The position numbers and the translations under genes are program-made. This document shows positions 5,508 to 29,826 of a stretch of 33,265 nucleotides of DNA, in pieces. Position 1 is the first letter of the stretch; each line of letters starts with the position of its first letter. The notes under the pieces are model-generated. The model saw only the letters and a program-made list of their open reading frames with translations, was not told where the DNA came from and ran no database searches. The stretch comes from Acidobacteriota bacterium (GTDB taxonomy: Bacteria > Acidobacteriota > B3-B38 > Guanabaribacteriales > JAGGZT01): NCBI GenBank assembly GCA_021161905.1, contig JAGGZT010000057.1, forward strand, positions 1-33,265. The letters run 5' to 3'.

Positions 5508-7259
5508 ATGGCAAAGTGGCGACTTATATTGGCAAAGAAGGGCGGCTTCTGTATGGGGGTGAAGCGAGCGGTGGATATCGTTCTCGCAGAGGCAGAGAGA
5601 GCAGATGGGGTAATCTATACCGATGGACCCCTCATCCACAATCCCCAGGCGGTAGAGGTACTCAAAGCAAAGAGGGTATATCCCCTCTCAGACCTTGCCC
5701 AGGCAAAGGGGAAAAGGGTGATCATTAGAACCCATGGCATCAGCCCAAGGAGAAGAAAGAAGCTGGAAGAGCTCGGGGCAAACATCTGCGACGCCACCTG
5801 CCCTCGCGTCTCTCGGATACATAAGATAATAAGGGAGCATGCCGAGAAGGGATGCACCGTAGTAATCATTGGGGATAAGGGACACCCCGAGGTAGCTGGG
5901 CTCCTCGGCTCTGCCAGAGGGAGGGGAGTAGTGGTGGAAGAGGAAGCCGATTTCGCCTCCCTTCCCAATAAGGGGGAAACGAAACTCTGTATCGTCGCCC
6001 AAAGTACCCAGAGTAGGGAACGCTTCCACCACTTGGTTAAAAAAATAAAGGAGCGGTATCCAGACGCCGAGATATTCGACACCCTCTGCAACTCCACTGC
6101 CGAGAGACAGGAAGAGGTCCGTAAAATTGCGGGTGAGGCTGATGTGGTAATTGTGGTTGGGGGGAGGAACTCCGCTAATACCAAACGACTGTTCGAGATA
6201 GTAAAGGAGGAAGGAAAGCCCGCTTACCTCGTGGAGACGGAAGAGGAGATAACTGAGGCTATGGTTACTCCTTTTTCCGCGATAGGTATTGCTGCTGGAG
6301 CCTCTACCCCCAAATGGATGATCGAACGGGTGGTGAACCGAGTGCGGGAGATAAAGCTGAGGCAACTTTCTCCTCTCCTTGCTGCCTTTCTCTTCTTCCT
6401 TCGCTTCCTCACCAAGGGGAACCTTTACACCGCCATCGGAGTCTTCTTCCTCACCTATGGAAGCGCCCGCCTCTTAGGGATCGAACCATCATTCACCTCT
6501 ACAGCTATCGCTTCCCTCTACATTCTCTCGATCCATCTTCTCAACTACTATACCGATCCTGAGGGGTTAAGGCTTCTGGGACAGATATCGGAGGCGAGCT
6601 ATTACATCCGTTATCGCACCCCCCTCCTTGCCACCGCCCTCATCTCCGCCTTATCCTCGCTTGTCCTCGCCCTTACCAAGGGGGGGCTCACCTTCCTTCT
6701 CCTTCTTGCTGCCATCTTCCTTGGCATCCTTTACGGAATAAGAATCCTCCCCCCTTCGATAAGCCGTATCCTCAAATTTGGAAGGTTGAAGGACATCCCT
6801 ACCTCTAAGGATATCTTCGCCTCCCTTGGTTGGGGAACGGTGGTGGTCCTCCTTCCAGTGATCGGAAGTAGGAATAAACTCTTCTCGCCCGCCCTTTTGT
6901 TCACCTTCCTCTATGTGGCGCTCCTTGCCGCCATTCGTTCCATTATGTTTGACATAAAAAACATCCGGGCGGACAGGATCACTGGAAGGGAAACCATACC
7001 CTCCACCATCGGGGAGAAGAAGACCAAATCGCTGCTTATCTTCCTGCTCCTACTCGCCAGCTTGGACCTTCTCCTCTACTTTGCCCTCTTTGGAAATTTC
7101 CTCGCTCTCGTTCTTCTAATCCCGTTAGGATATGCCTCCCTTTACCTATTCCTCCATCAGAGAGGGCTCCTCCGACGGGATATAGTCTTCTCCCTGGTAG
7201 TTGATGGTAAGTTCTACCTGGTGGGGATACTTGCCTATCTACTGGGCGGGGGAAGCTAA
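5508..7259 (+). CDS. ispH: IspH (HMBPP reductase) fused to a UbiA-like membrane prenyltransferase domain
   Basis: Residues 1-285 are a complete 4-hydroxy-3-methylbut-2-enyl diphosphate reductase, the last MEP-pathway enzyme, making IPP and DMAPP with a 4Fe-4S cluster. The cluster cysteines are Cys15 (GGFCMGV), Cys98 (DATCP) and Cys194 (TLCNST). His44, His76, His126, Glu128 and Thr167 are the expected substrate residues. Residues from about 290 to 583 are about eight hydrophobic helices unlike IspH. They carry a UbiA-like first motif Asn346-x3-Asp350 and a second motif DIKNIRADR with Asp482 and Asp489, followed by Gly-Arg-Glu-Thr-Ile-Pro, as in UbiA enzymes. Both motifs are slightly degenerate: the third acid of motif 1 is missing and Asn485 stands where Asp is usual. 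The frame is unbroken from 5508 to 7259. The prenyl acceptor is unknown. It overlaps the convergent methyltransferase by 3 bases. Confidence 0.93.
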   Translation: MAKWRLILAKKGGFCMGVKRAVDIVLAEAERADGVIYTDGPLIHNPQAVEVLKAKRVYPLSDLAQAKGKRVIIRTHGISPRRRKKLEELGANICDATCPRVSRIHKIIREHAEKGCTVVIIGDKGHPEVAGLLGSARGRGVVVEEEADFASLPNKGETKLCIVAQSTQSRERFHHLVKKIKERYPDAEIFDTLCNSTAERQEEVRKIAGEADVVIVVGGRNSANTKRLFEIVKEEGKPAYLVETEEEITEAMVTPFSAIGIAAGASTPKWMIERVVNRVREIKLRQLSPLLAAFLFFLRFLTKGNLYTAIGVFFLTYGSARLLGIEPSFTSTAIASLYILSIHLLNYYTDPEGLRLLGQISEASYYIRYRTPLLATALISALSSLVLALTKGGLTFLLLLAAIFLGILYGIRILPPSISRILKFGRLKDIPTSKDIFASLGWGTVVVLLPVIGSRNKLFSPALLFTFLYVALLAAIRSIMFDIKNIRADRITGRETIPSTIGEKKTKSLLIFLLLLASLDLLLYFALFGNFLALVLLIPLGYASLYLFLHQRGLLRRDIVFSLVVDGKFYLVGILAYLLGGGS

Positions 7260-12110: not shown

Positions 12111-13517
12111 TCAGAACTTCACCCCAGCACCGAAGAAGAACTGACGGTAATCCTTGACCCAGAAATCGTCATACCCGCCGGCTAAGAAGAAGCGACGGGT
12201 AGGGAAAAACCTGGTGGTGAACCTCAGATGTGGTCCCTCATTCCTTAAGAGATCAAAGCTATCGAAGCTGAGAAGAACCCTCCCCCCAAGGGAGAGGTCG
12301 GTTCCCACTCCTATCTCCGACTCGATCAGCCCACCGCGGAGGGAAAAGGGACCAAACCTCCTACCAGCTAAAACGGAAAAGGAGAAACCTCGCTCCCTCT
12401 TTGTCCGCTCGATGGTGGTGGTAGTACTACCATCACCGCTTACGGTGTTCACCCATTCGGTGGAATGGTATCTCTTTCCTATCTCGTCATCGACCAACTC
12501 CAGCCGGACAAAGCCCTTAGCCGAACCCAACTCCAAGGTGAAGTAGTTCCTTAAACCATCATCATTGGCGAAATATAGACTACTCACTCCAAAGGAAAGG
12601 TTCACCTTTTCCATCCCGGCAAGGGTGCCCCTCACCCTCCTTATCACCTCATGGGTATCGGAGATAGTATCCTTCACCTTCTGTTTGGTATCCTCTCCCA
12701 TCAAAAGCTCTCCTACAGTTCCCTCACCTTGGTTTATCTTCTTAAGAAGTTCATCCAAGGTGGCAATAAGGGAATCGAGCCGGGCGGAGAGCTTCTTCAT
12801 ATTCTCCACACTCTCTTGAATCTCGCTTCGGTTTTCCTCAACCGCATTCTTGAGCTCAAAGGTGAACTCCCGGAGATTAACCACTATCTCCGGTATCTGC
12901 TCCCTGAGATCGGAAGATATCATCTGGGCGTTATCAAACATCTGATCCACCTTGGGCTTATTGGTGGTGGAGAGCTCCCTTGCCAGTCTATTCAGATGAT
13001 CGAAGGTCTCGAGGAAACTCTGCCACTTCTTCTTACTTTCCTCAGAGGCGATCAACCCCCTAATATGCCCCACCGTTTCCCCTACATCAGCAGCTATCGA
13101 ATTGAGCACCGATACGATCTGATCCATCGAGGTTGGAGGCTCACCATAGATCATATCCCCATCGTTGAGATAGGGAGCATTTATGGGACCAGAGGTAATC
13201 TCTACATACTTCTCGCCGAGAAGCCCTATGGTACCCACCGCCGCTCTTGCCCCCCGGTGGATCTTCACATTCTGCTTGACGAACAGGGTCACCTCTACCC
13301 CTCGATCCGTGAGGTTCATCTTCTCCACCTCACCTATCCGATACCCAGCCAACCTCACCTCAGCACCTTCTATTAAACCGGCAACCATAGGGAACACCGT
13401 TCGCAGATGATAGCCCTTCTTCCTCATCCAGGGTAATTCCCCCGAGCGGACGAGAAGGTAAGCCAAGATAACCAAAGCCAATACTACAAAGACCCCTACT
13501 TTTAATTCTCTCTTCAT
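12111..13517 (-). CDS. mlaD: MlaD-family MCE protein with a beta-barrel-like C-terminal extension
   Basis: This is the periplasmic MCE subunit of a phospholipid/lipid transporter. A single N-terminal helix (about 8-23) is followed by the MCE domain (about 35-125, with LIEGAEVRLAGYRIGEVEKM and VGTIGLLGEKYVEI). A long helical region of about 165 residues, which would form the central tunnel in LetB- and PqiB-like assemblies, comes next. From about residue 300 to 468 the sequence becomes strand-rich with many Phe, Tyr and Gly and ends FFFGAGVKF with a terminal Phe. E. coli MlaD has only about 180 residues. The extension looks like an outer-membrane barrel (inference), so the protein might span the periplasm. 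The mlaE-mlaF-mlaD order is normal; mlaC and mlaB are not in the window. Confidence 0.9.
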   Translation of the reverse strand: MKRELKVGVFVVLALVILAYLLVRSGELPWMRKKGYHLRTVFPMVAGLIEGAEVRLAGYRIGEVEKMNLTDRGVEVTLFVKQNVKIHRGARAAVGTIGLLGEKYVEITSGPINAPYLNDGDMIYGEPPTSMDQIVSVLNSIAADVGETVGHIRGLIASEESKKKWQSFLETFDHLNRLARELSTTNKPKVDQMFDNAQMISSDLREQIPEIVVNLREFTFELKNAVEENRSEIQESVENMKKLSARLDSLIATLDELLKKINQGEGTVGELLMGEDTKQKVKDTISDTHEVIRRVRGTLAGMEKVNLSFGVSSLYFANDDGLRNYFTLELGSAKGFVRLELVDDEIGKRYHSTEWVNTVSGDGSTTTTIERTKRERGFSFSVLAGRRFGPFSLRGGLIESEIGVGTDLSLGGRVLLSFDSFDLLRNEGPHLRFTTRFFPTRRFFLAGGYDDFWVKDYRQFFFGAGVKF

Positions 13518-13535
13518 CCTTCTCTCCCTAAATAA

Positions 13536-14285
13536 TTACTCCAAGGTGGGGATTGGTCCCTCTGCTCGCCCATTAATGAACTGTTGAACCACCGGATTAG
13601 CTGAATTCCTTATCTCCTCGGGAGTCCCCTCCTCTATTATCCTACCACCGTAGAGCATCGCTATCCTATCCGCTATTTTATAGGCGCTTACCATATCGTG
13701 GGTGATAGCTACAGAGGTGACTTTAAGCTTGTTCTTAAGATCAACAATCAAGTTGTTAATCACATCCGCCATTATGGGATCAAGCCCGGTGGTCGGCTCA
13801 TCGTAGAGGATTATCTTCGGTTTCATCGCGATCGCCCGGGCGAGCCCCACCCTTTTCTTCATACCTCCGGAAAGCTCCAAGGGGTAAAGTTCCTCCACAT
13901 TGGACAAACCCACCATCTTCAAGCATTCCCCAACTCTATCCTTTATCTCTTCCTCGGTCATATTGGTGTGATGGCGTAAACCAAAGGCAACATTCTCGAA
14001 AACATTGAGGGAATCAAAGAGCGCTGCCCCCTGAAAGAGCATCCCGAACTTCTTCCGCACCTCGTTCAACTCCTTCTCTTTCATATTATCTATCCTCACC
14101 CCGTCTACATAGACCTCCCCTCGGTCGGGCTTCAATAACCCAATGATGTGCTTGATCAAAACCGTTTTCCCGGAACCACTTCTACCGATTACCACCACCG
14201 ACTCCCCTTCAGCTACCTCAAGATTCACCCCACAAAGGACACAATTACCCCCAAAGGACTTATGGATATCAACGAGCTTTATCAC
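13536..14285 (-). CDS. mlaF: MlaF, ATP-binding subunit of MCE lipid transporter
   Basis: This cytosolic ABC ATPase powers the MlaE permease. Visible motifs are Walker A GRSGSGKT (34-41), Q-loop MLFQGAALFDSL, signature LSGGMKKR near 139, Walker B IILYDEPTTGLDP and the switch His in AITHDM. The FQGAALFDSLNVFENVAF segment and the post-signature sequence are typical of the MlaF/Ttg2A subgroup. The start is GTG at 14283-14285. It lies 12 bases after mlaE ends and 18 bases before mlaD, so the three are co-transcribed. Confidence 0.96.
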   Translation of the reverse strand: MIKLVDIHKSFGGNCVLCGVNLEVAEGESVVVIGRSGSGKTVLIKHIIGLLKPDRGEVYVDGVRIDNMKEKELNEVRKKFGMLFQGAALFDSLNVFENVAFGLRHHTNMTEEEIKDRVGECLKMVGLSNVEELYPLELSGGMKKRVGLARAIAMKPKIILYDEPTTGLDPIMADVINNLIVDLKNKLKVTSVAITHDMVSAYKIADRIAMLYGGRIIEEGTPEEIRNSANPVVQQFINGRAEGPIPTLE

Positions 14286-14297
14286 TTCCTCACCCCG

Positions 14298-15044
14298 CTA
14301 AAATAGTATCTTCCCTAAGAAGAAGTCCAAAATGAGGATGGATAGGGAGGCGAAAACGACCGAGCGATTAGTAGCCCTCCCTACCCCTTCAGCGCCACCC
14401 TCGGAATAAAACCCACAGTAACAGGCGATGATAGTGAGCGACATCCCGAAGACACCCGCTTTGATCAATCCATTGGTGATATCGGAGATGTGGAGCATAG
14501 TAAAGGTATTTTGAATATAGACGGTAGGGTTCGTCCCGAAAAGATACACGCTAACTAAGTAACCGCCCAATATCCCCAAAGCATCGGTGTAGATGGTGAG
14601 TATAGGAAGCATAACGAGACCAGCAAGAAACCGGGGCACGATAAGGTATTTAACCGGATTGGTCGCCATAGTGGTTAGAGCGTCTATCTGCTCAGTAACC
14701 CGCATCGTCCCTATCTCAGCTGCCATCGCCGAACCCGCCCGTCCCGCCACCATCAGGGCGGTAAGCACCGGTCCCAACTCCCTGGTAACCGAGAGAGCAA
14801 CCACTCCCCCAAGGATACTCTCCGCCCCGAACCGCTGAAAACTGGTGTAGGTCTGAAGAGCAAGGATCATTCCGGTAAAGGTCCCCGTGATGCTCACCAC
14901 CATCATCGAATTTATACCTACCTCCTCCATTTGGGCGAATATAAGCCGTCCATAAAGGGGGGGGCGGAATATCCAGCCAATGGTATCAATGAGGAGAAGG
15001 AACAACCTCCCCATCTCCTCAAAGAAGTTGGTGATCCCTTTCAT
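14298..15044 (-). CDS. mlaE: MlaE-family permease
   Basis: This 248-residue permease has an N-terminal amphipathic interfacial helix followed by about five membrane helices. Diagnostic MlaE sequences are present: the elbow GRLIFAQMEEVGINSMMVV, TRELGPVLTALMVAGRAGSA, ELGTMRV-like EIGTMRVTEQIDAL, and the C-terminal GFYSEGGAEGVGRATNRSVV. It forms the membrane channel of the MCE transporter with MlaF. The direction of lipid flow cannot be read from sequence. It starts 6 bases after dnaB ends. Confidence 0.96.
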   Translation of the reverse strand: MKGITNFFEEMGRLFLLLIDTIGWIFRPPLYGRLIFAQMEEVGINSMMVVSITGTFTGMILALQTYTSFQRFGAESILGGVVALSVTRELGPVLTALMVAGRAGSAMAAEIGTMRVTEQIDALTTMATNPVKYLIVPRFLAGLVMLPILTIYTDALGILGGYLVSVYLFGTNPTVYIQNTFTMLHISDITNGLIKAGVFGMSLTIIACYCGFYSEGGAEGVGRATNRSVVFASLSILILDFFLGKILF

Positions 15045-17700: not shown

Positions 17701-19395
17701 TTAAAAGAAAGAACCATACCTCGCAACGAGCATCACAACAAACAAAGTAAAAAGAGCGGTAAGCTTCATCAAATTAAGCACCGCCGGCGCTGCCACCCGA
17801 GCAAGGGGAGAACCAACGATGGCTCCGTCCGTCGCCCCCTTGAGAGAAAACTCATCCTTCTTTTCCCCTTCAGCTACCGCCTTAGCCGCCTGCTCCCAGG
17901 CTCCTCCTGAAGCGAACATCATCAGGGCGATGAGAATACCAGAAGCAAAGAGGCCAAAAAGCATCCCCCCAAGCGCACCCCTACCGAGAAGAAACCCGAC
18001 CAAGGGTGGAAAGATAAGGGCGAAAACAACGGGAATAAGCGCCCTTCTTCCGGCATAGGAGGCAAGGGAAGAAACCTTAAGGGCTTTTCCCGCCTCATCA
18101 CGGCGGGCAAGTCTGCTCACCCCGGAAAGGACCGAGGAGACAAAGAAAAAGCTTAAGGCACCACCAGCAAATAGCCCCACCACCACCTTGGCGCTTATCA
18201 CGCTTACCGCCACCATCTGGGCGATCACCGGGTAGGCGAAAATGAGGGAGAGAACAGCTAATGAAGAGGAAAGGAAAAACCACCCCCAGCTGCCTCTGCC
18301 TCGAGGCAGACTATCCTCCACCGCCTCGACAAGCGAGATGAAAGAGAGCGAAGGGGCAAGCAGGGAAAGGGAAAGAGCGGAAAGAGCGATCCCGAAAGAG
18401 CCAGCAAGGCGATAGGAGAGATAGCCGAGAAGAGAAAGGAGCAAGATGGGATAGAAGGTGCTTCCTAAGCCCAAGGCGAACCCAGTTATGATATTGGTGG
18501 CGGAGCCGGTCCTGCTTGACTCAACAAGCTTACCAACGCTCCTTCCTCCAGTGTAGTAACGAGCAATAAAGAAGGAAATCACTCCAAAAAGAATAGCAAC
18601 GAGGAGCACCAGAAAATAACTCCGGGAAAGGGAGAGATAACGACAGAGGAAGAAACCGCCGATGAGGAAGAGAAGGGGGGAGACCAAAATGTTCACTAAC
18701 ACCTTTCTTCGGGAGATATAGGAAAGGATAAACCCCACCACTCCGCTTCCTACCCCAAGGAGAACAAGTGAGAGGAGAAACGGAAGGAGAGAGCCTCTCG
18801 CCGGCTCTGCCAGAAGAAGAAGATAGGAAGCGGCAAAGGAAGCAAACAAGGCTTCAAACGGTTCCACCACCGTAGAGAAAGCCGATCCCCTTCGGGAAAT
18901 AGAGGGGGAAAAGCCCCCGGCAAGCCTCGCCCCTTCGCTAAGAATGCCCTTTCCTATCCGGAAAAAGGAGAAAAGGAGCACCAGAGAAAGAGCCAAGACA
19001 AAAAGGAGTACCCCCTTCCCCCCAGAAAATAAGCGGAAGGTGAGAAATAGGAAAAGGAGGGAGAGGAATCCACCAACCAAAGCCAAGAAATACCCCTCCT
19101 CCACCTTATAGAGGATCCCTCTTTCCCCTATAAACAAGAAAAGTACTGCCAAAAGAACGCCTAAAAGGAAACCGAAAATCGGGGTAGCCCCTTTAGCTAA
19201 GAAGATGACGAAAGCCACTACCAGAGCAACGGGGATAGAGATGAAAAACGCCCACTTCCCCCCATTTAGAGAAGCATCAATGAAATAAGCCTCCTCCTTG
19301 ATCCTCTCTCTATCCCTCAATCTAAAATAGAGGATGATCGAGGATATGAAACCCACGATACCCGATATGAGACCGATAAGGATTAAGTTAGGCAT
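17701..19395 (-). CDS. Degenerate membrane pyrophosphatase (HppA-like) probably without catalytic activity
   Basis: This 564-residue protein with about 14-16 membrane helices aligns along its length with H+/Na+-translocating membrane pyrophosphatases, which normally have 660-800 residues. Family landmarks are GFLLGVLLAVLFLFIGE, RIGKGIL (near 142), YYTGGRSVGKLVESSRTG and SATNIITGFALGLGSTFYP (near 279-315), PPLVGFLLG, and ASGGAWEQAAKAV (near 493). The catalytic parts are missing. After GKGIL the Lys/Asp-rich KAADVGADLVGK and DNVGDNVGD segments are replaced by a shorter non-acidic stretch. The DAYGP...DNAGG block is lost. The final GDTVGDPFKDT is replaced by GAIVGSPLARVA. Pyrophosphate and metal binding should therefore be impossible. 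Overlap with pth is 8 bases, with a strong AAAGGAGGAAGAG site. The frame is clean, so it is a conserved coding gene, not a pseudogene. Its role is unknown. Confidence 0.85.
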   Translation of the reverse strand: MPNLILIGLISGIVGFISSIILYFRLRDRERIKEEAYFIDASLNGGKWAFFISIPVALVVAFVIFLAKGATPIFGFLLGVLLAVLFLFIGERGILYKVEEGYFLALVGGFLSLLFLFLTFRLFSGGKGVLLFVLALSLVLLFSFFRIGKGILSEGARLAGGFSPSISRRGSAFSTVVEPFEALFASFAASYLLLLAEPARGSLLPFLLSLVLLGVGSGVVGFILSYISRRKVLVNILVSPLLFLIGGFFLCRYLSLSRSYFLVLLVAILFGVISFFIARYYTGGRSVGKLVESSRTGSATNIITGFALGLGSTFYPILLLSLLGYLSYRLAGSFGIALSALSLSLLAPSLSFISLVEAVEDSLPRGRGSWGWFFLSSSLAVLSLIFAYPVIAQMVAVSVISAKVVVGLFAGGALSFFFVSSVLSGVSRLARRDEAGKALKVSSLASYAGRRALIPVVFALIFPPLVGFLLGRGALGGMLFGLFASGILIALMMFASGGAWEQAAKAVAEGEKKDEFSLKGATDGAIVGSPLARVAAPAVLNLMKLTALFTLFVVMLVARYGSFF

Positions 19396-21802: not shown

Positions 21803-22687
21803 TCACTTCCAATCCTTAAACATACGCTTCACATACTCATCACGCAAAAGAGGCGTCGTTAGAAAAACACGCATCCTCTCTTTAAAAAAAGCCACCGCCT
21901 CTACCGCCTCCTTCCGTTCCGAAAAAAGACCAAAAAGGGAAGGACCACTTCCCGACATCAACGCCCCCTTTGCCCCCTTCCTCCTAAGTTCCTCCTTTAA
22001 GGAAGAAAGCTCGGGGAAACTCTTTTCTACCACCCTCTCCAAATCGTTAAAGAGCAAAATCTCTTTCTTCCCCTCACCGAGAAGAAGCCCATTCATATTA
22101 ATTTCTTTCCTCTTCCTTGTCAACAGCTTATCGTACTCATTGTACGCCCAAGCAGTACTAATTTCAAAATCCGGGGAAAGAAGAACAATATAAGGAAAAG
22201 GAAGGGAAAATTCCAAAGGACGAAGCTCGTCCCCTCTGCCAGACCCCAAAACCGCTCCCCCCATCAGGAAAAAAGGGGCATCCGCCCCGAGAAGACGAGC
22301 AAGGGGAAACAATTCCTCCTTCGATAACCCTACATCGAAAAGCCTGTTCATCCCAAGGAGAACCGTAGCTGCGTTACTACTTCCCCCAGCCAAACCGGCG
22401 GCAAGAGGGATCCTTTTTTTGATCTCTATCCGTACCCCCAACCTGATCCCCACCCTGTCCAAAAAGAGCTTTGCCGCCTTCACCGCCAAATTCCGCTCAT
22501 CGACAGGAAGACGGGGTTCGTTTGAGGAGAACTCTATCCCTTCCTGCCTCCTCTCTATCGTGATTAGATCACAAAGGGAGATGGTCTGATAAAGGGTTCT
22601 TATCTCGTGGTAACCATCATCCCTTTTCTCGCCCACCTTTAAAAAGAGATTTATTTTAGCAAATGAGCAAAGTTCTATCCTTTTCAT
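21803..22687 (-). CDS. ispE: IspE, 4-diphosphocytidyl-2-C-methyl-D-erythritol kinase
   Basis: IspE phosphorylates CDP-ME in the MEP isoprenoid pathway. This 294-residue GHMP kinase has substrate motif FAKINLFLKVGEKRDDGYHE, the glycine-rich ATP loop PLAAGLAGGSSNAATVL with the catalytic Asp before RVGIRL-type sequence region (GADAPFFLMGG), and the third motif KGALMSGSGPSLFG. Its start overlaps the LolB-like gene by four bases (ATGA), indicating coupling. With the ispH fusion and the polyprenyl synthase it is one of three isoprenoid genes in the window. Confidence 0.97.
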   Translation of the reverse strand: MKRIELCSFAKINLFLKVGEKRDDGYHEIRTLYQTISLCDLITIERRQEGIEFSSNEPRLPVDERNLAVKAAKLFLDRVGIRLGVRIEIKKRIPLAAGLAGGSSNAATVLLGMNRLFDVGLSKEELFPLARLLGADAPFFLMGGAVLGSGRGDELRPLEFSLPFPYIVLLSPDFEISTAWAYNEYDKLLTRKRKEINMNGLLLGEGKKEILLFNDLERVVEKSFPELSSLKEELRRKGAKGALMSGSGPSLFGLFSERKEAVEAVAFFKERMRVFLTTPLLRDEYVKRMFKDWK

Positions 22688-23526
22688 TCGCCCTCCCTAA
22701 AAAGAAGGGGGGTCTCACCCTTGATATGGGATAGAGGAATAAAGGTAACATCGGAAGGGAAAACGAAGGAAAAAGCATCTCCCTTAAGGAAAGAAGGATT
22801 AATGGTGATATCCTTAGCCCTCAATCTTAGGTTCAGCCCTTCATCGGGTAGTTCTATCTCGATGAGCTTTGGGAAAAGACGGAAGCCAACATTGAAGAAA
22901 GAACGATAAGAGACCGAAACCACCTTTCCCCTTTTCTCCATTTCAAGTGCTGAAAATGATGGGATGCGAGGATCAATAAAAACAGCCCCTTTGCCATCCG
23001 AAGAAGAAAGCCTAACCTCAATAAGACCCTTCCCCTCGTCGAAACGGGGTGAGGAAAACCGATATCCAGCATCAGGAACAAGAGCACCAAGAACGACCGC
23101 CACCACTTCGGAGGGGGAAAGATTTACCCCAATGAGGCGGAAGAGCGTCTCTGAAGTAGCGGGAGCGGTTACAACCTTTTTGTCCTTTATATAGTAGAGA
23201 TAGACCTTATCCTTATTCATCAAGAAAAGAAGGGAGGTTCCCCCAAATGGTCCTCCAAGCTCAAGCCGGAGCAAAGAATCCCTCTTTGCGAGAAGCGTCC
23301 CCTCCGCTTTGTGCCTTTTTCCCCTCACATTTAAGAGAAAGGTAAACCGCCCACCAAGAGAGTGAACCTCAGCCACCTTCTCCTGCACCTCCCTCACGAA
23401 GGAGGAGGGATTGCTCCTCGCCCGTCGGTAAAGCTCAGGAGAGAGCCGTGGCTTGGGGGCACAAGAGAAAAGAGAGAAAACAAGAAGAGAAAGAAAGAAT
23501 ACTCGGAGGAGTAAACCCTTTTTCAT
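22684..23526 (-). CDS. LolB-like outer-membrane lipoprotein
   Basis: This 280-residue lipoprotein has a signal peptide and lipobox SLFSC with Cys22. The mature protein starts with a helix and then alternates strands in the style of LolB/LolA half-barrels (for example GGRFTFLLNVRGKRHKAEGTLLAKRD and RLELGGPFGGTSLLFLMNKDKVYLYY). It resembles the DUF4292/LolB-like group. In gamma-proteobacteria lolB lies directly before ispE, and here too it overlaps ispE by four bases. A role in receiving or inserting lipoproteins at the outer membrane is therefore inferred. Sequence identity to true LolB is not obvious. It overlaps the upstream TPR gene by four bases as well. Confidence 0.7.
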   Translation of the reverse strand: MKKGLLLRVFFLSLLVFSLFSCAPKPRLSPELYRRARSNPSSFVREVQEKVAEVHSLGGRFTFLLNVRGKRHKAEGTLLAKRDSLLRLELGGPFGGTSLLFLMNKDKVYLYYIKDKKVVTAPATSETLFRLIGVNLSPSEVVAVVLGALVPDAGYRFSSPRFDEGKGLIEVRLSSSDGKGAVFIDPRIPSFSALEMEKRGKVVSVSYRSFFNVGFRLFPKLIEIELPDEGLNLRLRAKDITINPSFLKGDAFSFVFPSDVTFIPLSHIKGETPLLFREGE

Positions 23527-25469
23527 CTCTTCCTCTTGAGGAGCCTTTCTACCTTCTTTATTTTTTTCTTAAGCCTCTTCTCGTCCTCCACCTTAAGGGA
23601 AAGCGCTTTTTTGTAATTGGAAAGGGCATCCTGGTACCGTTTAAGTCTTAAGTAGAGATCGCCCAGGTGCTCCTTTATCTCCCCAGAGGTGGGCTCTTTC
23701 CGTGATGCTGCCTCAAGATATTTTTTGGCGAGCTCGATCTTCCTCTGTCTAAAGTAAGCCCAGCCCAAACTATCGAGATAGGAACCGTTAGCGGGCTCGA
23801 TAGCAAGAGCCCGCTTTATGTAGGATATCGCCTCCCTTAGCCTTATTCCTCTATCAGCGAGCATATATCCAAGATAATTTAGGGCGGAATCGTTTTCCGG
23901 ATTGAGCCTGATCGCTTTCAAAAGAACCCTTTCCGCTAAGACAAACTTCCCGCTCCGCTCATACAAAGCACCAAGAAGGAAATAGAGTCTATCACTTTTG
24001 GGAAATCGTCTAAGGGATGCTCGTACCACTGGGACCCCCTTCCGATATCTCTTCCCTTCAAGATAAAGAGTGGCTAAAGTAGTATGATAGCGTAACTCAT
24101 CAGGAAAATGTTCGATCAAAGACTTTACAATAGCCACCCCTTCATCGAACCTACCATCTCTCACTAAGAGGTTCGCCTTGAGGATCAAGGTGTCGGGATT
24201 TGCCTCCTTCTTGAGCTTCTCCTCGATCAAGGAGAATGCCTTCTCCTTCTCCCCGGCTTCGAAATGGCTTAAAACGATAAAGGGGAAAAGATGAGGAAGC
24301 ATCTTCGAATTTTCCTTTTCCGCCGAGGAGAAAGCAGACAGCGCCTCCTTGTACCGTCCTGACCGATAATAAAGAAGTCCAAGATTGGCATAAAGAACCC
24401 CTCTGTTCTCTGCAAGGAGGGAATTTTCTCCTTCCTTAGCCTTGGCTAAAAGCTTGCTATATACCTTTATCGCACGGTCGTACTCATTTATGCTACTGAG
24501 AAAACGAGCGTAGGAGAAAAGAAGCTCTTCATCCTCCGGAGCATAGGTAAGCGCTCGGTTGAAAAGCTCTTCCGCTTTTGAAAAATCCTTTAGTTGACAA
24601 AAACACTCCGCTTCAAGGCGAAGGGCGGTTATATCATTCGGATCCTTGGAGAGCGCCTTCTCCAAAAGAGATATCGCCTCTTTGGCTTTTCCCAACTTAA
24701 GATAGGAGAAGCCAAGTCCTCGAAGAAATTCGGGCTCATCGGGCTGAAGTTTTAGTGCTCGCTCATAGGTTTCGGCTAAGCCCTGATAGTTCCGATGATA
24801 ACGGTAGAGATTGATGAGGGTAACCAGAGGCCGGAGATCGAGAGGGGCTATCTCCACCGCTTTTTTAAGGCTCTCCTCCGCTTTGGCGAAGTCTTCGAGC
24901 TGGATGTAATCCTGGGCGAGAAGGAGAAAACCCTCCTCTGAGCGAGGCTCGAATTCAATATGATGAAGGAGAGCGGAGATAGACCGGTTAAACTCCTTTT
25001 TCAAGAAATAGAGCCTGCCAAGGAGAAGATAAAGCTCTCCATCCTCCGCTTTAAGTGATCTTGCCCGCTCTAAATAACGGACGGCAAGGTCGATCGTCTC
25101 CTTCCCCCCAGGCTCACCAAGAGCGAGTTGATAGTATATCTCCCCCAGCATTCGAGCGCTACTGCCGGAATTGGGATCTATTCTAAGCGCCTGATTAAGC
25201 GAATCTATCGCCTTTCCCACCTTACCCCGATAAAAATAAAGAGCAGCCATAGCTTCATAGATGGGAATAGCTGTTTTATCGATGGCGAGCGCTCGCTGGT
25301 ATTCGGAAAGAGCCTTATCCCCTTCCCCTTCGAGCTCATAGAGCTTGCCCATCATAAAATGATAATAAGCCTCTCCCTTTATCTTGGTGGGAAGACGGCC
25401 TTCCTGCCAAGGAAAAAGAGAACCTGCGAAGAGAAGAATGGCAAAGAAAACTGTACTTACCCGTCTCAT
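23523..25469 (-). CDS. Secreted protein with many TPR repeats
   Basis: A signal peptide (about residues 1-22, hydrophobic FFAILLFAGSLF, no lipobox) precedes a tandem array of roughly 14-16 tetratricopeptide repeats to residue 625 or so. The repeat pattern is A-x-x-x-Y-x-x-A-L-x-x-D/E-P, for example YHFMMGKLYELEGEGDKALS and SYLDSLGWAYFRQRKIELA. The end is very basic (KKKIKKVERLLKRKR). The protein is most likely a periplasmic scaffold. Its neighbours are an alkaline-phosphatase-fold membrane protein and a LolB-like lipoprotein. ATG 25467-25469 has AAGGGGAG eight bases upstream. No function is assigned. Confidence 0.87.
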   Translation of the reverse strand: MRRVSTVFFAILLFAGSLFPWQEGRLPTKIKGEAYYHFMMGKLYELEGEGDKALSEYQRALAIDKTAIPIYEAMAALYFYRGKVGKAIDSLNQALRIDPNSGSSARMLGEIYYQLALGEPGGKETIDLAVRYLERARSLKAEDGELYLLLGRLYFLKKEFNRSISALLHHIEFEPRSEEGFLLLAQDYIQLEDFAKAEESLKKAVEIAPLDLRPLVTLINLYRYHRNYQGLAETYERALKLQPDEPEFLRGLGFSYLKLGKAKEAISLLEKALSKDPNDITALRLEAECFCQLKDFSKAEELFNRALTYAPEDEELLFSYARFLSSINEYDRAIKVYSKLLAKAKEGENSLLAENRGVLYANLGLLYYRSGRYKEALSAFSSAEKENSKMLPHLFPFIVLSHFEAGEKEKAFSLIEEKLKKEANPDTLILKANLLVRDGRFDEGVAIVKSLIEHFPDELRYHTTLATLYLEGKRYRKGVPVVRASLRRFPKSDRLYFLLGALYERSGKFVLAERVLLKAIRLNPENDSALNYLGYMLADRGIRLREAISYIKRALAIEPANGSYLDSLGWAYFRQRKIELAKKYLEAASRKEPTSGEIKEHLGDLYLRLKRYQDALSNYKKALSLKVEDEKRLKKKIKKVERLLKRKR

Positions 25470-25521: not shown

Positions 25522-27453
25522 TTATCTTATGTAGCCTAAGGCACGGAGCCGTTCTATCATCTCCCGGTCAAACCGGGAACGGGCGGAGATGACTTTTTCT
25601 GGGCTTCTGGTGCCAAAGCTTCTCACCCACCTTAAGGGAAGCTCGGATAGGAAGCGGGGAGCTATAACTTCTTTAAGCACCCTCCCCTTCATTTCCTCGC
25701 TAACCGGGAAGCCAAGGAGGTAAAGGAGGGTGGGGGCGATATCGAACTCAGTGGCAGGCATTGCTCTTACTCCCTTTTTGACAACTGGTCCCTTGATCAG
25801 AAGAGCCCCCCGTCCCGATGAAAAAAGAGGAACAATGCGTCCAGGGTCGGCAACAATGACCACGATGACATCTGGAGGAAGAACGGAAACCATCTGACCA
25901 ATCTCGTCATCGAGAAAACGGTAATAAGCCTCGATCAAGGAAATCCTTTCGGCAAAGGTGGACAAATCACCACTCCCTCTGGAGAACACCACTCCCCGCA
26001 CAATATCAAGCCCAGGGAGGTAAAGGGCGAAGAAAAGAGGTTTCTCCTCTTGATAAAGCCTTGCCCCGACCGAAAGATAATAGCGATCTTCCCTCATTGC
26101 TTCCAAAACCACCGTTCGCTCCTTCCCGGAGAGGAAGAAAAGGGGAAATAAGCGAGTAAAGTCCTTACCCTCCTCATAAAAAAGTCTCTTAAGCTTGGGG
26201 AAAAGCTCCGCTGGAAATACCTCCTCCTCAAACCCTCCGCCAATCTTAAACTTAGGATAGGTTCTATCGGAGACGATAAAACCGGTGATGGGATAAGCGG
26301 GCCAAGAAGCCCACCAGTTGACCACTCCTACTGGGAGCTTTTTTTCTCCTATAATATCCCAGATCGCCTTCGTCTTCCTCATCCAAGCGGACACCGGCTC
26401 CTCAGCAGTCAACTTCACCCCGGGAAGAAGAGAATTTAACAGGGTATAAAGTTCCGGGAGCCCGATACCCCGTTGGAACGAGGTGCTAAGACCGGCGATC
26501 CTCTTCGCCCGAAACTCCCTTATCCCATGAGCCGATGGAGACATACCGGTAGAGATGGTGGTCCAGACCAGGGGAGGAATGCGTTCAGGAAAGGGAATAA
26601 GAGGAACCAATGAGCCCTCGTTCAAAAGGCGGGCAAAATTGGGGAGCTTCCCTTGTTTGATCAGCAACCGGAGATATCCTTCCTCCATCCCGTCTATGCC
26701 AATAACCGCCACCCGGTTCTTGGTAGGGATGATATTGAACTCCTCCCCTTTAGTGAAGGAAAGGGAGCGTTCACGAGATGTCAAGAACAGATACCCAAAG
26801 AAGAAAGCCGAAGCTAAAACCAAAACAACGAGATAACGGTAAAGGGTTCTACGCTCTCTTCCCTCAGGGGAGAGGGAGCTTTCCATCCGCCTGAGAACCG
26901 CCACACCGAGAAAGGAGACAAAACGCCCTAAGGCAAAACTAAAGAGGAGAATAAGCCCGAACACGAGGAGGACGAGGGGAAAAGACCTCATCCCGCCCAA
27001 AAAATACCCCCCCTCCCAGCGGAACCAAAGGGTAAGATAGATAAAGGAAAAGATGGAGAAAAAGAACCCCAACCGCCGGGGAATAATGAGAGGGTGAGCG
27101 AGCCTGCCTCGAAGGAGGAGGTAAAAACCAGCCACCAACAAACCGCCGAGGAATTCAAACAGGGCAAAGAGGATAAAGAATGAGACGACGAAATAGAAAG
27201 CAAGGACGAAGATATCTCGGGGATGAGAAAGAAGCTCTGGGTTGACGATCAGACTGAGTCCTGCCATCAACAAACCGATAATAAACCCTCCGATCGCAGC
27301 AACCCGTAGGCTTATCTTTAGATTGAATAAAATAAAGGAGGTCTTCGAGGTCAGGTCCTTGACAAAGTAGCGCTCAATCGGAGAATCGAGATACCCAAGC
27401 GAGCGGAGGAAGCCTCGGAGATCCTTCCCTTCTTTACCCCTTTTCCCCTCCAA
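25522..27453 (-). CDS. Membrane protein with a degenerate alkaline-phosphatase-superfamily domain
   Basis: The first 240 residues or so hold about six membrane helices. From about 250 on, the sequence follows type I phosphodiesterase/alkaline-phosphatase-fold proteins: AVIGIDGMEEG (Asp254), WTTISTGMSPSAHGIREF (near 297), NWWASWPAYPITGFIVSDR, and a late DIAPTLLYLLGFPVSEEMKG. Key catalytic positions have changed. The usual D-x-x-x-H is DIVRG (Asp483 kept, His lost), the usual SDHG is ADPG (Asp536 kept, His replaced by Pro537), the last metal His is absent before GALLIKGP, and Pro stands where the Ser/Thr nucleophile is expected before LVW. Activity is doubtful. The motif LRxLGY occurs near both termini. 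The start is a TTG with AAGGAGGGG upstream. It lies between HD-GYP and TPR genes. Confidence 0.85.
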   Translation of the reverse strand: MEGKRGKEGKDLRGFLRSLGYLDSPIERYFVKDLTSKTSFILFNLKISLRVAAIGGFIIGLLMAGLSLIVNPELLSHPRDIFVLAFYFVVSFFILFALFEFLGGLLVAGFYLLLRGRLAHPLIIPRRLGFFFSIFSFIYLTLWFRWEGGYFLGGMRSFPLVLLVFGLILLFSFALGRFVSFLGVAVLRRMESSLSPEGRERRTLYRYLVVLVLASAFFFGYLFLTSRERSLSFTKGEEFNIIPTKNRVAVIGIDGMEEGYLRLLIKQGKLPNFARLLNEGSLVPLIPFPERIPPLVWTTISTGMSPSAHGIREFRAKRIAGLSTSFQRGIGLPELYTLLNSLLPGVKLTAEEPVSAWMRKTKAIWDIIGEKKLPVGVVNWWASWPAYPITGFIVSDRTYPKFKIGGGFEEEVFPAELFPKLKRLFYEEGKDFTRLFPLFFLSGKERTVVLEAMREDRYYLSVGARLYQEEKPLFFALYLPGLDIVRGVVFSRGSGDLSTFAERISLIEAYYRFLDDEIGQMVSVLPPDVIVVIVADPGRIVPLFSSGRGALLIKGPVVKKGVRAMPATEFDIAPTLLYLLGFPVSEEMKGRVLKEVIAPRFLSELPLRWVRSFGTRSPEKVISARSRFDREMIERLRALGYIR

Positions 27454-27477: not shown

Positions 27478-28791
27478 TTATTCTACAACTATCCCTGGCT
27501 GTTCCTCAAGGATAGAGAGGAAGGCGTTGACGATGTGAGGATCGAACTGGGTACCCGCATTGAGCTTGAGCTCCCTCTTCGCTACCTCAACCCCCTTATA
27601 GCTATAGGAATCCTTATTGGCGATGGCGTCGAATACTTCAGCAACGGCAATTATCCGAGAACCACGAGGGATTTGTACCCCTTTGAGTCCATCAGGATAG
27701 CCACTCCCATCGTAGCGCTCATGGTGATGTCTGATGAGAGGGGCGGTTTTCTTGAATAGAATGATCGGCGAAACCATCTTTTCCCCCACCACCGGATGCT
27801 CTTTTACCTTCTCCCTATCAACCACTGGCACTCGCGGGATCCTCATCATCCCGATATCGTGAAGAAGAGCGGCAAAGTAGATCAACTTTCTCTCCTCATC
27901 GCCTAAATTCAGCTTCCTGGCGATCAGAGTGGAATATTTGGCTACATTGCGCAGATGGTTCCGCCAACTAACTGCCTGCTCCGAAGCGGTTACGATAAGC
28001 TCGGTGCCATAAGTAAAGTAGTTTTGTTGTGCTTCGTAAAGCTCAGCGTTCTTTATCGATATCGCCGCTTGCCCTGCCAAGCTTTCAAGCATCTCCAGAT
28101 CATCAGGGGCAAACTTCCCCTCCTCTTTATTGAGAAGCTCTATCACCCCAATAACCTTTCCCTGAAAGAGAATGGGGGCAGCGATAGCAGAACGGGTCTT
28201 AAATCCGGTTATCTCGTCGAAACTGGGATCGAACCTGGTATCGGTGGTCACATCGTTCACTATCAGGGGCTCTCCATGAAGCCCCACCCAACCAGCGATC
28301 CCCTGTCCCAATCGAAGGGCAAGCCCTTGGATCCTCTTCCCCTCTTCACCAGTTGCCACCTTGAAGAGCAGGTTTTCGCCCTCAGGATCAAGGAAGAAGA
28401 TAGTACCCGCCTCGGCACCTACAATGGCAGTAGCTGCCCGCACGATCCGCTCGAGCACCACATCTAAATGATAGGCAAGGGCTAAGGACTGGGAGACGGA
28501 AAGAAGCGCCGATACCCGAGTGGCATAATCGGAAAGTCGCGAGATAGCCCCTCTTATATCTCTAAGGAGAATGATATACCCCAATACCGAAAGGAAGGTA
28601 AGAAGAACCGCCGCCGCCGGGATGCCAATATATATCATACCCCGTTCCTCAGGTGGGAGGGCGGGATATACATAAGCCACCACCACATAGGCGAGCCCAG
28701 CCAAAGGAAGGACGGAGATCAGAAAATAGATGAGCTTGAATCGATATTCCGGACTATATCCGGAAATAGAAAGACCACCCCTTTTCCCCAT
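27478..28791 (-). CDS. Membrane GAF and HD-GYP domain protein, putative cyclic-di-GMP phosphodiesterase
   Basis: This 437-residue protein has two N-terminal membrane helices (about 18-40 and 52-76), a GAF domain (about 100-245, with GIAGWVGLHGEPLIVNDVTT and IGVIELLNKE), and a C-terminal HD-GYP domain (about 270-425). The catalytic HD pair is His311-Asp312 in ALLHDIGMMRIP, followed by HPVVGEKM, HHHERYDGSGYPDGLKG (near 353-369), and the RIIAVAEVFDAI segment. All signature residues look present, so hydrolysis of c-di-GMP or a related cyclic dinucleotide is expected; actual substrate is inferred. It is the first gene of a minus-strand operon with its own promoter and ends 24 bases before the alkaline-phosphatase-fold gene. 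Confidence 0.94.
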   Translation of the reverse strand: MGKRGGLSISGYSPEYRFKLIYFLISVLPLAGLAYVVVAYVYPALPPEERGMIYIGIPAAAVLLTFLSVLGYIILLRDIRGAISRLSDYATRVSALLSVSQSLALAYHLDVVLERIVRAATAIVGAEAGTIFFLDPEGENLLFKVATGEEGKRIQGLALRLGQGIAGWVGLHGEPLIVNDVTTDTRFDPSFDEITGFKTRSAIAAPILFQGKVIGVIELLNKEEGKFAPDDLEMLESLAGQAAISIKNAELYEAQQNYFTYGTELIVTASEQAVSWRNHLRNVAKYSTLIARKLNLGDEERKLIYFAALLHDIGMMRIPRVPVVDREKVKEHPVVGEKMVSPIILFKKTAPLIRHHHERYDGSGYPDGLKGVQIPRGSRIIAVAEVFDAIANKDSYSYKGVEVAKRELKLNAGTQFDPHIVNAFLSILEEQPGIVVE

Positions 28792-28879: not shown

Positions 28880-29764
28880 CTATCGCTGGCGGGATTCTAT
28901 ATAACGGGCAAGGTCAAGAAGAACCTCTGCCTTTTTGCCGAAAAAGGAAAGGGCGGTTACCGCTGCCTCAATAAGCTCATGGACTATCTTCCTCGCCTCA
29001 GAAAGCCCGCAGTAGGAAACAAAGGTGAGCTTCCCCTTATCCTTTCTCAGATCCTTTCCCACCTCTCCTTCCTCCCCTACAACATCGAGAATATCATCGG
29101 TTATCTGAAAGGCGAGGCCAAGGTTCTTGGCATAGGCGGAACAGGCGGAAAGCTCCACCGCATTTGCCCCAGAAAGAACCGCTCCTGCCTCAGCAGCAAA
29201 GATGAACAGGGAACCGGTCTTATGGCTATGGATGTACTCCAGGGTGGTAAGATCGAGCTCCTCCTCGTTCACCTTGAGATCGACCACCTGTCCCCCAATT
29301 ATCCCCTTGGTGCTTATCGCCTGAGATAGCCTCTTCCCCAGCTCAATGATGAGCTTTCCCCTCACCTTGGCGAGTTCCTTCATCCGGAATATGATGTAGT
29401 AAGCCTGGTTCAAGAGAGCTATCGCCGCTAAAATAGCTATATCCTCACCAAATATAAGGTGGGCGGTGGGCTTCCCCCGGCGGGTCCTGGCGTCATCCAT
29501 CGAGGGAAGATCATCGAGGATAAGGGAACAGGTGTGGATCATCTCGATGGCACAGGCTACGGGGATCACCCTCTCCAGCTCCCCCCCGAGCATCTCCGCC
29601 ACCGCCAAGGAAAGGATAGGGCGAAGTCTCTTCCCAGGAAGGAAGAGGGTATAACGCATCGCCTCATGGATCACCGGGGGATACTCCTCCTCCTTGGGAA
29701 GAAGGGTAGTCAATCTCCTCTCTATCAGTCTCTTTTTCTCCTCGAGGTAGTCCTTCAAATCCAT
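28880..29764 (-). CDS. ispA: Polyprenyl (farnesyl/geranylgeranyl) diphosphate synthase
   Basis: This trans-prenyltransferase condenses IPP with allylic diphosphates. Visible signatures are GKRLRP, the first aspartate-rich motif LILDDLPSMDD (Asp84, Asp85, Asp90) with the two-residue insertion of bacterial FPP synthases, ARTRRGKPTAH, the HKTGSL and GGQVVDL blocks, and the second motif FQITDDILD. The residues just before the first motif are Thr-Cys-Ser, with no bulky aromatic stopper, so the product could be C15 or C20. A GTG at 29791 would extend the protein by nine residues. ATG 29762-29764, giving MDLKDYLEEKKRLIE, matches the family N-terminus and was chosen (294 residues). It is divergent from fur. 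Confidence 0.92.
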   Translation of the reverse strand: MDLKDYLEEKKRLIERRLTTLLPKEEEYPPVIHEAMRYTLFLPGKRLRPILSLAVAEMLGGELERVIPVACAIEMIHTCSLILDDLPSMDDARTRRGKPTAHLIFGEDIAILAAIALLNQAYYIIFRMKELAKVRGKLIIELGKRLSQAISTKGIIGGQVVDLKVNEEELDLTTLEYIHSHKTGSLFIFAAEAGAVLSGANAVELSACSAYAKNLGLAFQITDDILDVVGEEGEVGKDLRKDKGKLTFVSYCGLSEARKIVHELIEAAVTALSFFGKKAEVLLDLARYIESRQR

Positions 29765-29826
29765 TTCTTCTAAAGAATAACACAGATCCACGCTCTCCTC
29801 AATTGTGATACCTTTTAAAATAATGG

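Follow-up and report, generated by a model that had tools for sequence, protein, structure and literature searches.

The window, that is the whole stretch of 33,265 nucleotides analysed here, belongs to an Acidobacteriota genome assembly of 2.09 Mb (72 contigs, completeness 100%) and encodes a membrane protein with the fold of alkaline phosphatase. The question raised by this locus is whether the protein is still an enzyme and, if not, what it does at the membrane. Homology alone would file such proteins as alkaline phosphatase family enzymes, which would mislead pathway reconstruction in Acidobacteriota. A sequence-only reading had proposed that the protein has lost all three metal-binding histidines and is a pseudoenzyme which, attached to membrane helices, serves for binding or scaffolding.

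Fold and active site of the 643-residue protein

The gene (25522..27453, minus strand) begins with TTG, from which residues are numbered here. Its product matched the PF01663 profile with 62.4 bits (gathering score cut-off 23) over residues 248-538. An AF2 model calculated from an alignment of 12 rows had a mean pLDDT of 76.9 overall and a pTM of 0.76, with the C-terminal alpha/beta domain mostly confident, and the top PDB matches of this model in Foldseek were NPP/ENPP enzymes (E 3.5e-7, probability 1.00). Searches of Pfam and NCBIfam yielded PF01663 and a weak PhnA match and nothing else. The profile score and the Foldseek matches confirm the alkaline-phosphatase fold.

For the comparison of active sites, 44 rows of the pseudoenzyme family, mostly from Acidobacteriota, were aligned with 22 related rows with an intact site. 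The relatives were drawn from genomes of the same phylum, named genome contigs and further fetched loci; contigs were scanned with a query of three rows, a family alignment being too diverse. Asp254 (IGIDGM; 26692..26694, minus strand), a retained metal aspartate, is present in all 44 pseudoenzymes and all 22 intact-site relatives. The position of the catalytic nucleophile is occupied by Pro293 (IPPLVW; 26575..26577, minus strand) in the window protein, as the sequence-only reading had noticed, and by P (35 rows), T (4), A (3) or L (2) in the family, as opposed to S or T in 22/22 intact-site relatives; the four members that still carry T are L080, L104, L105 and L106. The former DxxxH motif reads D483-IVR-G487 (25993..26007, minus strand) and is part of the signature YLPGLD. 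Residue 483 is D in 42 of the 44 pseudoenzymes, whereas a histidine at 487 is found in six of them and in 22/22 intact-site relatives. The former SDHG motif reads A535-D-P-G-R539 (25837..25851, minus strand), with position 537 occupied by His in none and by Pro in 38 of the 44 pseudoenzymes, as opposed to His in all 22 relatives; Arg539 is kept in 35/44. The final-His segment of the window protein is shortened and has no histidine. Alignment with intact-site homologues thus bears out the loss of all three metal histidines (DIVRG, ADPG, final His absent). The accompanying claim that the metal aspartates remain holds for the window protein (D254, D483, D536) and not for the family as a whole, in which D536 is found in only 25/44.

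No His or Cys was conserved in at least 80% of the 44 pseudoenzymes except H309, which belongs to a TG..P..HG motif common to pseudoenzymes and intact-site relatives. Since there is no new conserved His or Cys, conservation in the 44 rows does not support a two-metal site and nucleophile rebuilt from other residues. What is conserved at the ruined site are the replacement signatures YLPGLD and DPGR. The pattern of losses lies far outside what chance would give, being found in over 40 homologues and in none of the 22 relatives whose site is intact. At the level of sequence, the 643-residue protein and its relatives are shown to be pseudoenzymes with a dead site, which may retain weak metal binding through the conserved D254 and D483 and, in the window protein, also D536.

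Membrane layout and history of the family

Five transmembrane helices are predicted from the secondary structure of the AF2 model between residues 40 and 228 (26770..27336, minus strand), namely at 40-70, 78-114, 123-151, 158-190 and 200-228, instead of the about six suggested earlier. In 44 relatives, the loop charges were +1.5 for the N-terminal tail, +2.3 for loop 2-3 and +3.1 for loop 4-5, the other loops having +0.7 and +0.1. These charges obey the positive-inside rule for a protein whose N-terminus is predicted in the cytosol and whose domain is predicted on the periplasmic side.

The most conserved segments of the family (44 rows) are LR..GYL-type motifs at both ends of the protein. The N-terminal motif, R13 to L22 (LRxxGYL; 27388..27417, minus strand), is predicted to be cytosolic; L16, G20, Y21 and L22 are conserved in 100% and R13 in 95% of the 44 pseudoenzymes. 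The C-terminal motif LRALGY (residues 636-641; 25531..25548, minus strand) contains L639, G640 and Y641, each 100% conserved. The N-terminal motif was not found in the intact-site relatives. It occurs in pseudoenzymes from synthase-bearing genomes and is absent from two dead-site proteins, L073 from Eisenbacteria and L065 from a Thermomicrobiales bin, both of whose genomes are missing the partner synthase described below.

In a quick maximum-likelihood tree calculated without the active-site columns, for which the root was not inferred and many inner branches are open, a branch with an SH-aLRT support of 99% separated the intact-site proteins and two SGFG-type rows (L014, L015) from all remaining pseudoenzymes. 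This separation is compatible with a single loss of the active site. One subclade keeps the DxxxH histidine and has lost the others (DIAQH in L070, L092, L098, L099 and L100; also L134). In the deep members L120 and L121 even D483 is lost, and the pairing with the synthase is kept. Values of dN/dS were 0.13, 0.15, 0.18 and 0.29 for close pairs and 0.42-0.46 for more distant pairs, which shows a gene that is maintained; decay or a one-off loss was rejected on these values and on the family-wide pattern. Clade-wide loss, purifying selection and new signatures fit the binding or scaffolding role that had been proposed for the window protein.

A second group of transmembrane proteins of the alkaline phosphatase superfamily (L014, L015, L123, L124, L125) was also observed, in which SGFG or SGYG replaces SDHG and DxxxH is kept; in these proteins the site was probably lost separately and in part.

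A paired prenyl diphosphate synthase

Regarding gene neighbourhood, a PF00348 synthase was found upstream on the same strand within 6 kb at 35/46 pseudoenzyme loci versus 0/14 other loci, counting loci whose available upstream sequence reached 1.2 kb or more; the 'SGFG-type' label used in this count also took in some SDHGFG proteins, which are intact-site. The distance from the synthase stop to the pseudoenzyme start was mostly -4 to +22 nt, with many ATGA or GTGA overlaps. Among the fetched loci the synthase was the sole widely recurring neighbour, the remaining ones (UvrC, STAS, MetH, SecA and others) varying from locus to locus. In the window, the synthase gene (28880..29791, minus strand) is separated from the pseudoenzyme by one gene encoding a GAF-HD_GYP-type protein (27478..28791, minus strand; Pfam HD_5 and GAF), of which no relative was found in the other fetched loci. 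About 4 kb lie between synthase and pseudoenzyme at L076 and L087. At L076 (8836-12587), two sulfatase-type proteins, one of them with clear TPRs, are encoded between the two, with overlapping gene ends.

The synthase is of the short-chain (FPP/GGPP) type and was assigned to a partner subfamily by PF00348, the FPPsyn model NF045485, linkage and co-occurrence. With NF045485 (cut-off 275) it scored 294.2 bits, and L063 (261.5) and L086 (257.2) fell below the cut-off; with the CrtE equivalog NF045685 it scored 291.3 and did not reach the cut-off of 460. Both Asp-rich motifs are intact in the window synthase (DDLPSMD, DDILD), and the signature of the paired synthases reads LILDDLPSMDDA...KTGALF, the shared elements being SL[IV]LDDLP[SC]MDDA..RRG and KTG[AS]LF. 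The paired synthases are probably active enzymes, because both Asp-rich motifs are kept. Their signature resembles CrtE-type GGPP synthases. Besides the paired synthase, the source genome carries two further PF00348 genes, one of a long-chain type (L114) and one for a canonical IspA (L115; HDDLPAMDNDD, NF045485 score 386 bits). At least three PF00348 matches were present in 21 of the 22 pair-bearing genomes examined, and two matches in the remaining one. Carotenoid synthesis was rejected as what the paired synthase generally serves: genes for phytoene/squalene synthase were present in 17/22 pair-bearing genomes but not found in the source genome or in G014.

Carriers of the synthase were found among 396 Acidobacteriota genomes with a profile of 16 paired synthases, which left a score gap near 345 bits and 51 genomes above it. 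Pseudoenzyme carriers numbered 46, and both gene types occurred in 45 genomes (Fisher p 1.7e-51, a value which ignores shared ancestry and depends on a 345-bit threshold set after the gap was seen and on carrier lists compiled by hand). In eight of the 45 genomes the two genes are on different contigs (G027, G030, G042, G065, G066, G229, G253, G285), and none of the synthases of these eight was among the 16 sequences of the search model. G340 carries the pseudoenzyme and not the partner synthase, and the same-order genomes G001-G003 have neither. Around Glassbacteria, outside the phylum, the pseudoenzyme family was found in 5/200 genomes, with a synthase directly upstream in four. At the level of gene order and gene content, the pairing shows a shared pathway or shared regulation and not physical contact.

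Downstream of the pseudoenzyme lie genes for a TPR protein, a DUF4292 protein and IspE (21803-25469, minus strand) with 4-nt overlaps. Neither these downstream genes and Prs nor the gene of the HD-GYP protein were accepted as conserved partners, the other loci being without them; IspE-Prs-L25 is regarded here as an ordinary housekeeping cluster. Further observations in the window are adjoining MlaD, ABC ATPase and MlaE genes (12111-15044), a lipid-transport set on the same, minus strand as the pseudoenzyme; a 564-residue ORF (17701-19395, minus strand) with a partial match to H+-pyrophosphatase (PF03030; best stretch 442-552), which may be divergent; and a single 583-residue ORF (5508-7259, plus strand) in which IspH (LytB) is fused to a UbiA prenyltransferase, a kind of fusion already described (PMC4746011). 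Regarding the intact-site relatives, a link to polyprenyl-phosphate glycosyltransferases was considered and dropped: an ORF beside L072 matches PMT_2 below cut-off, and no glycosyltransferase match was obtained for the extension at the N-terminus of L071.

Proposed role and comparison with known systems

The near-constant pairing with a gene for isoprenoid precursors suggests that the protein acts in their synthesis as a helper or sensor and not as an enzyme, a role not recognised so far. The reading preferred here, to which we assign a probability of roughly 0.55, is that the protein, without being catalytic, binds, senses or scaffolds at the membrane in the manner of YejM and works with the paired synthase in isoprenoid lipid synthesis. 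The periplasmic pocket, remodelled around YLPGLD and DPGR, would bind a phosphorylated lipid head group; the ligand could plausibly be a polyprenyl phosphate or diphosphate or a lipid made from one, that is, an isoprenoid or another phosphorylated lipid. The cytosolic LRxxGYL segment may dock the synthase or a regulator. From these two proposed activities it would follow that the pseudoenzyme scaffolds or feedback-regulates the production of isoprenoid lipid at the membrane, by analogy with YejM/PbgA/LapC, which senses LPS and controls LpxC. A more specific version is offered tentatively: an undescribed two-gene module of Acidobacteriota and Glassbacteria, in which a third synthase is joined by a transmembrane pseudoenzyme that would sense periplasmic isoprenoid lipid and control or localise the cytosolic synthase.

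The protein might instead be a structural subunit for flipping, export or assembly of an isoprenoid-derived envelope lipid, the dead domain being a periplasmic platform and not a sensor. The predicted five-helix and periplasmic layout and the pairing with an extra prenyl synthase would suit such a subunit, as would the Mla-type set (MlaD/ABC/MlaE) and IspE near it on the same strand in the source genome; however, neither these Mla genes nor IspE are conserved with the pair, and the protein showed neither a motif nor a fold of transporters. This role is considered unlikely. Somewhat less probable still is continued catalysis, as a phosphotransferase or pyrophosphatase that would need one metal or none and would turn over the polyprenyl diphosphates of the paired synthase through D254, D483 and Arg539 in a rebuilt site. 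These three residues are conserved (44/44, 42/44 and 35/44), a diphosphate-making partner suits a pyrophosphatase, and YejM, which is without the canonical histidines, was reported as a weak Mg-dependent phosphatase (PMC7576196), but Pro stands in 35/44 where a nucleophile would be needed, no new His or Cys is conserved, D536 is variable, and L120 and L121 are still paired without D483. That the pair merely preserves an ancestral gene order around a decaying or neutral gene is very improbable, for although order can persist by descent and both families are old and mostly of one phylum, dN/dS is 0.13-0.46, new signatures are conserved, stop/start overlaps recur in divergent contexts (UvrC, STAS and MetH neighbours) and co-occurrence extends to the eight genomes with unlinked genes.

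A non-catalytic binder, sensor or scaffold paired with the synthase can be set beside several known proteins. Regarding the partner, IspA (FPP synthase) and CrtE (GGPP synthase) are likewise PF00348 proteins with both Asp-rich motifs, whereas the partner is a third, distinct copy beside the canonical IspA with a signature of its own. Regarding the pseudoenzyme, the fold and the order of motifs are common to the PF01663 nucleotide pyrophosphatases/phosphodiesterases (ENPP, Xac NPP), in contrast to which the three metal histidines and the Ser/Thr nucleophile are gone and five N-terminal transmembrane helices have been gained. The closest intact-site relatives are five-helix PF01663 proteins of Acidobacteriota (such as L064, L128 and L130) with the same predicted architecture; these keep the S nucleophile, DxxSH, SDHG and the final His, but have neither the LRxxGYL N-terminal motif nor a paired synthase. 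In open-licence literature, no description of the family or of the synthase-pseudoenzyme pair was found, and searches for a pseudoenzyme of the alkaline phosphatase superfamily gave no relevant paper.

The nearest functional parallel is YejM/PbgA/LapC of Enterobacteria, which combines five transmembrane helices with a periplasmic alkaline-phosphatase-superfamily domain of altered site and controls a lipid pathway (PMC9356133, PMC7576196). The pseudoenzyme has the same predicted combination of five helices and periplasmic domain. By its sequence the family is nevertheless not a member of YejM: Thr302 and His468 are retained in YejM, a protein of the sulfatase/LtaS/EptA branch, whereas the pseudoenzyme belongs to the PF01663 branch and is mostly without either, and YejM was absent from its PDB sequence matches and from its best 50 Foldseek matches. 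Next to YejM, the family offers another lineage of membrane proteins of the alkaline phosphatase superfamily that have been retained with an altered catalytic site. A dead enzyme kept across a whole clade together with an additional prenyl synthase points to a step or a point of control in the isoprenoid lipid metabolism of bacteria that has gone unrecognised. Since an altered-site membrane protein of the superfamily is already known in YejM, the new element is the coupling to isoprenoid synthesis, the pseudoenzyme being paired with a prenyl synthase where YejM is paired with LapB/LpxC.
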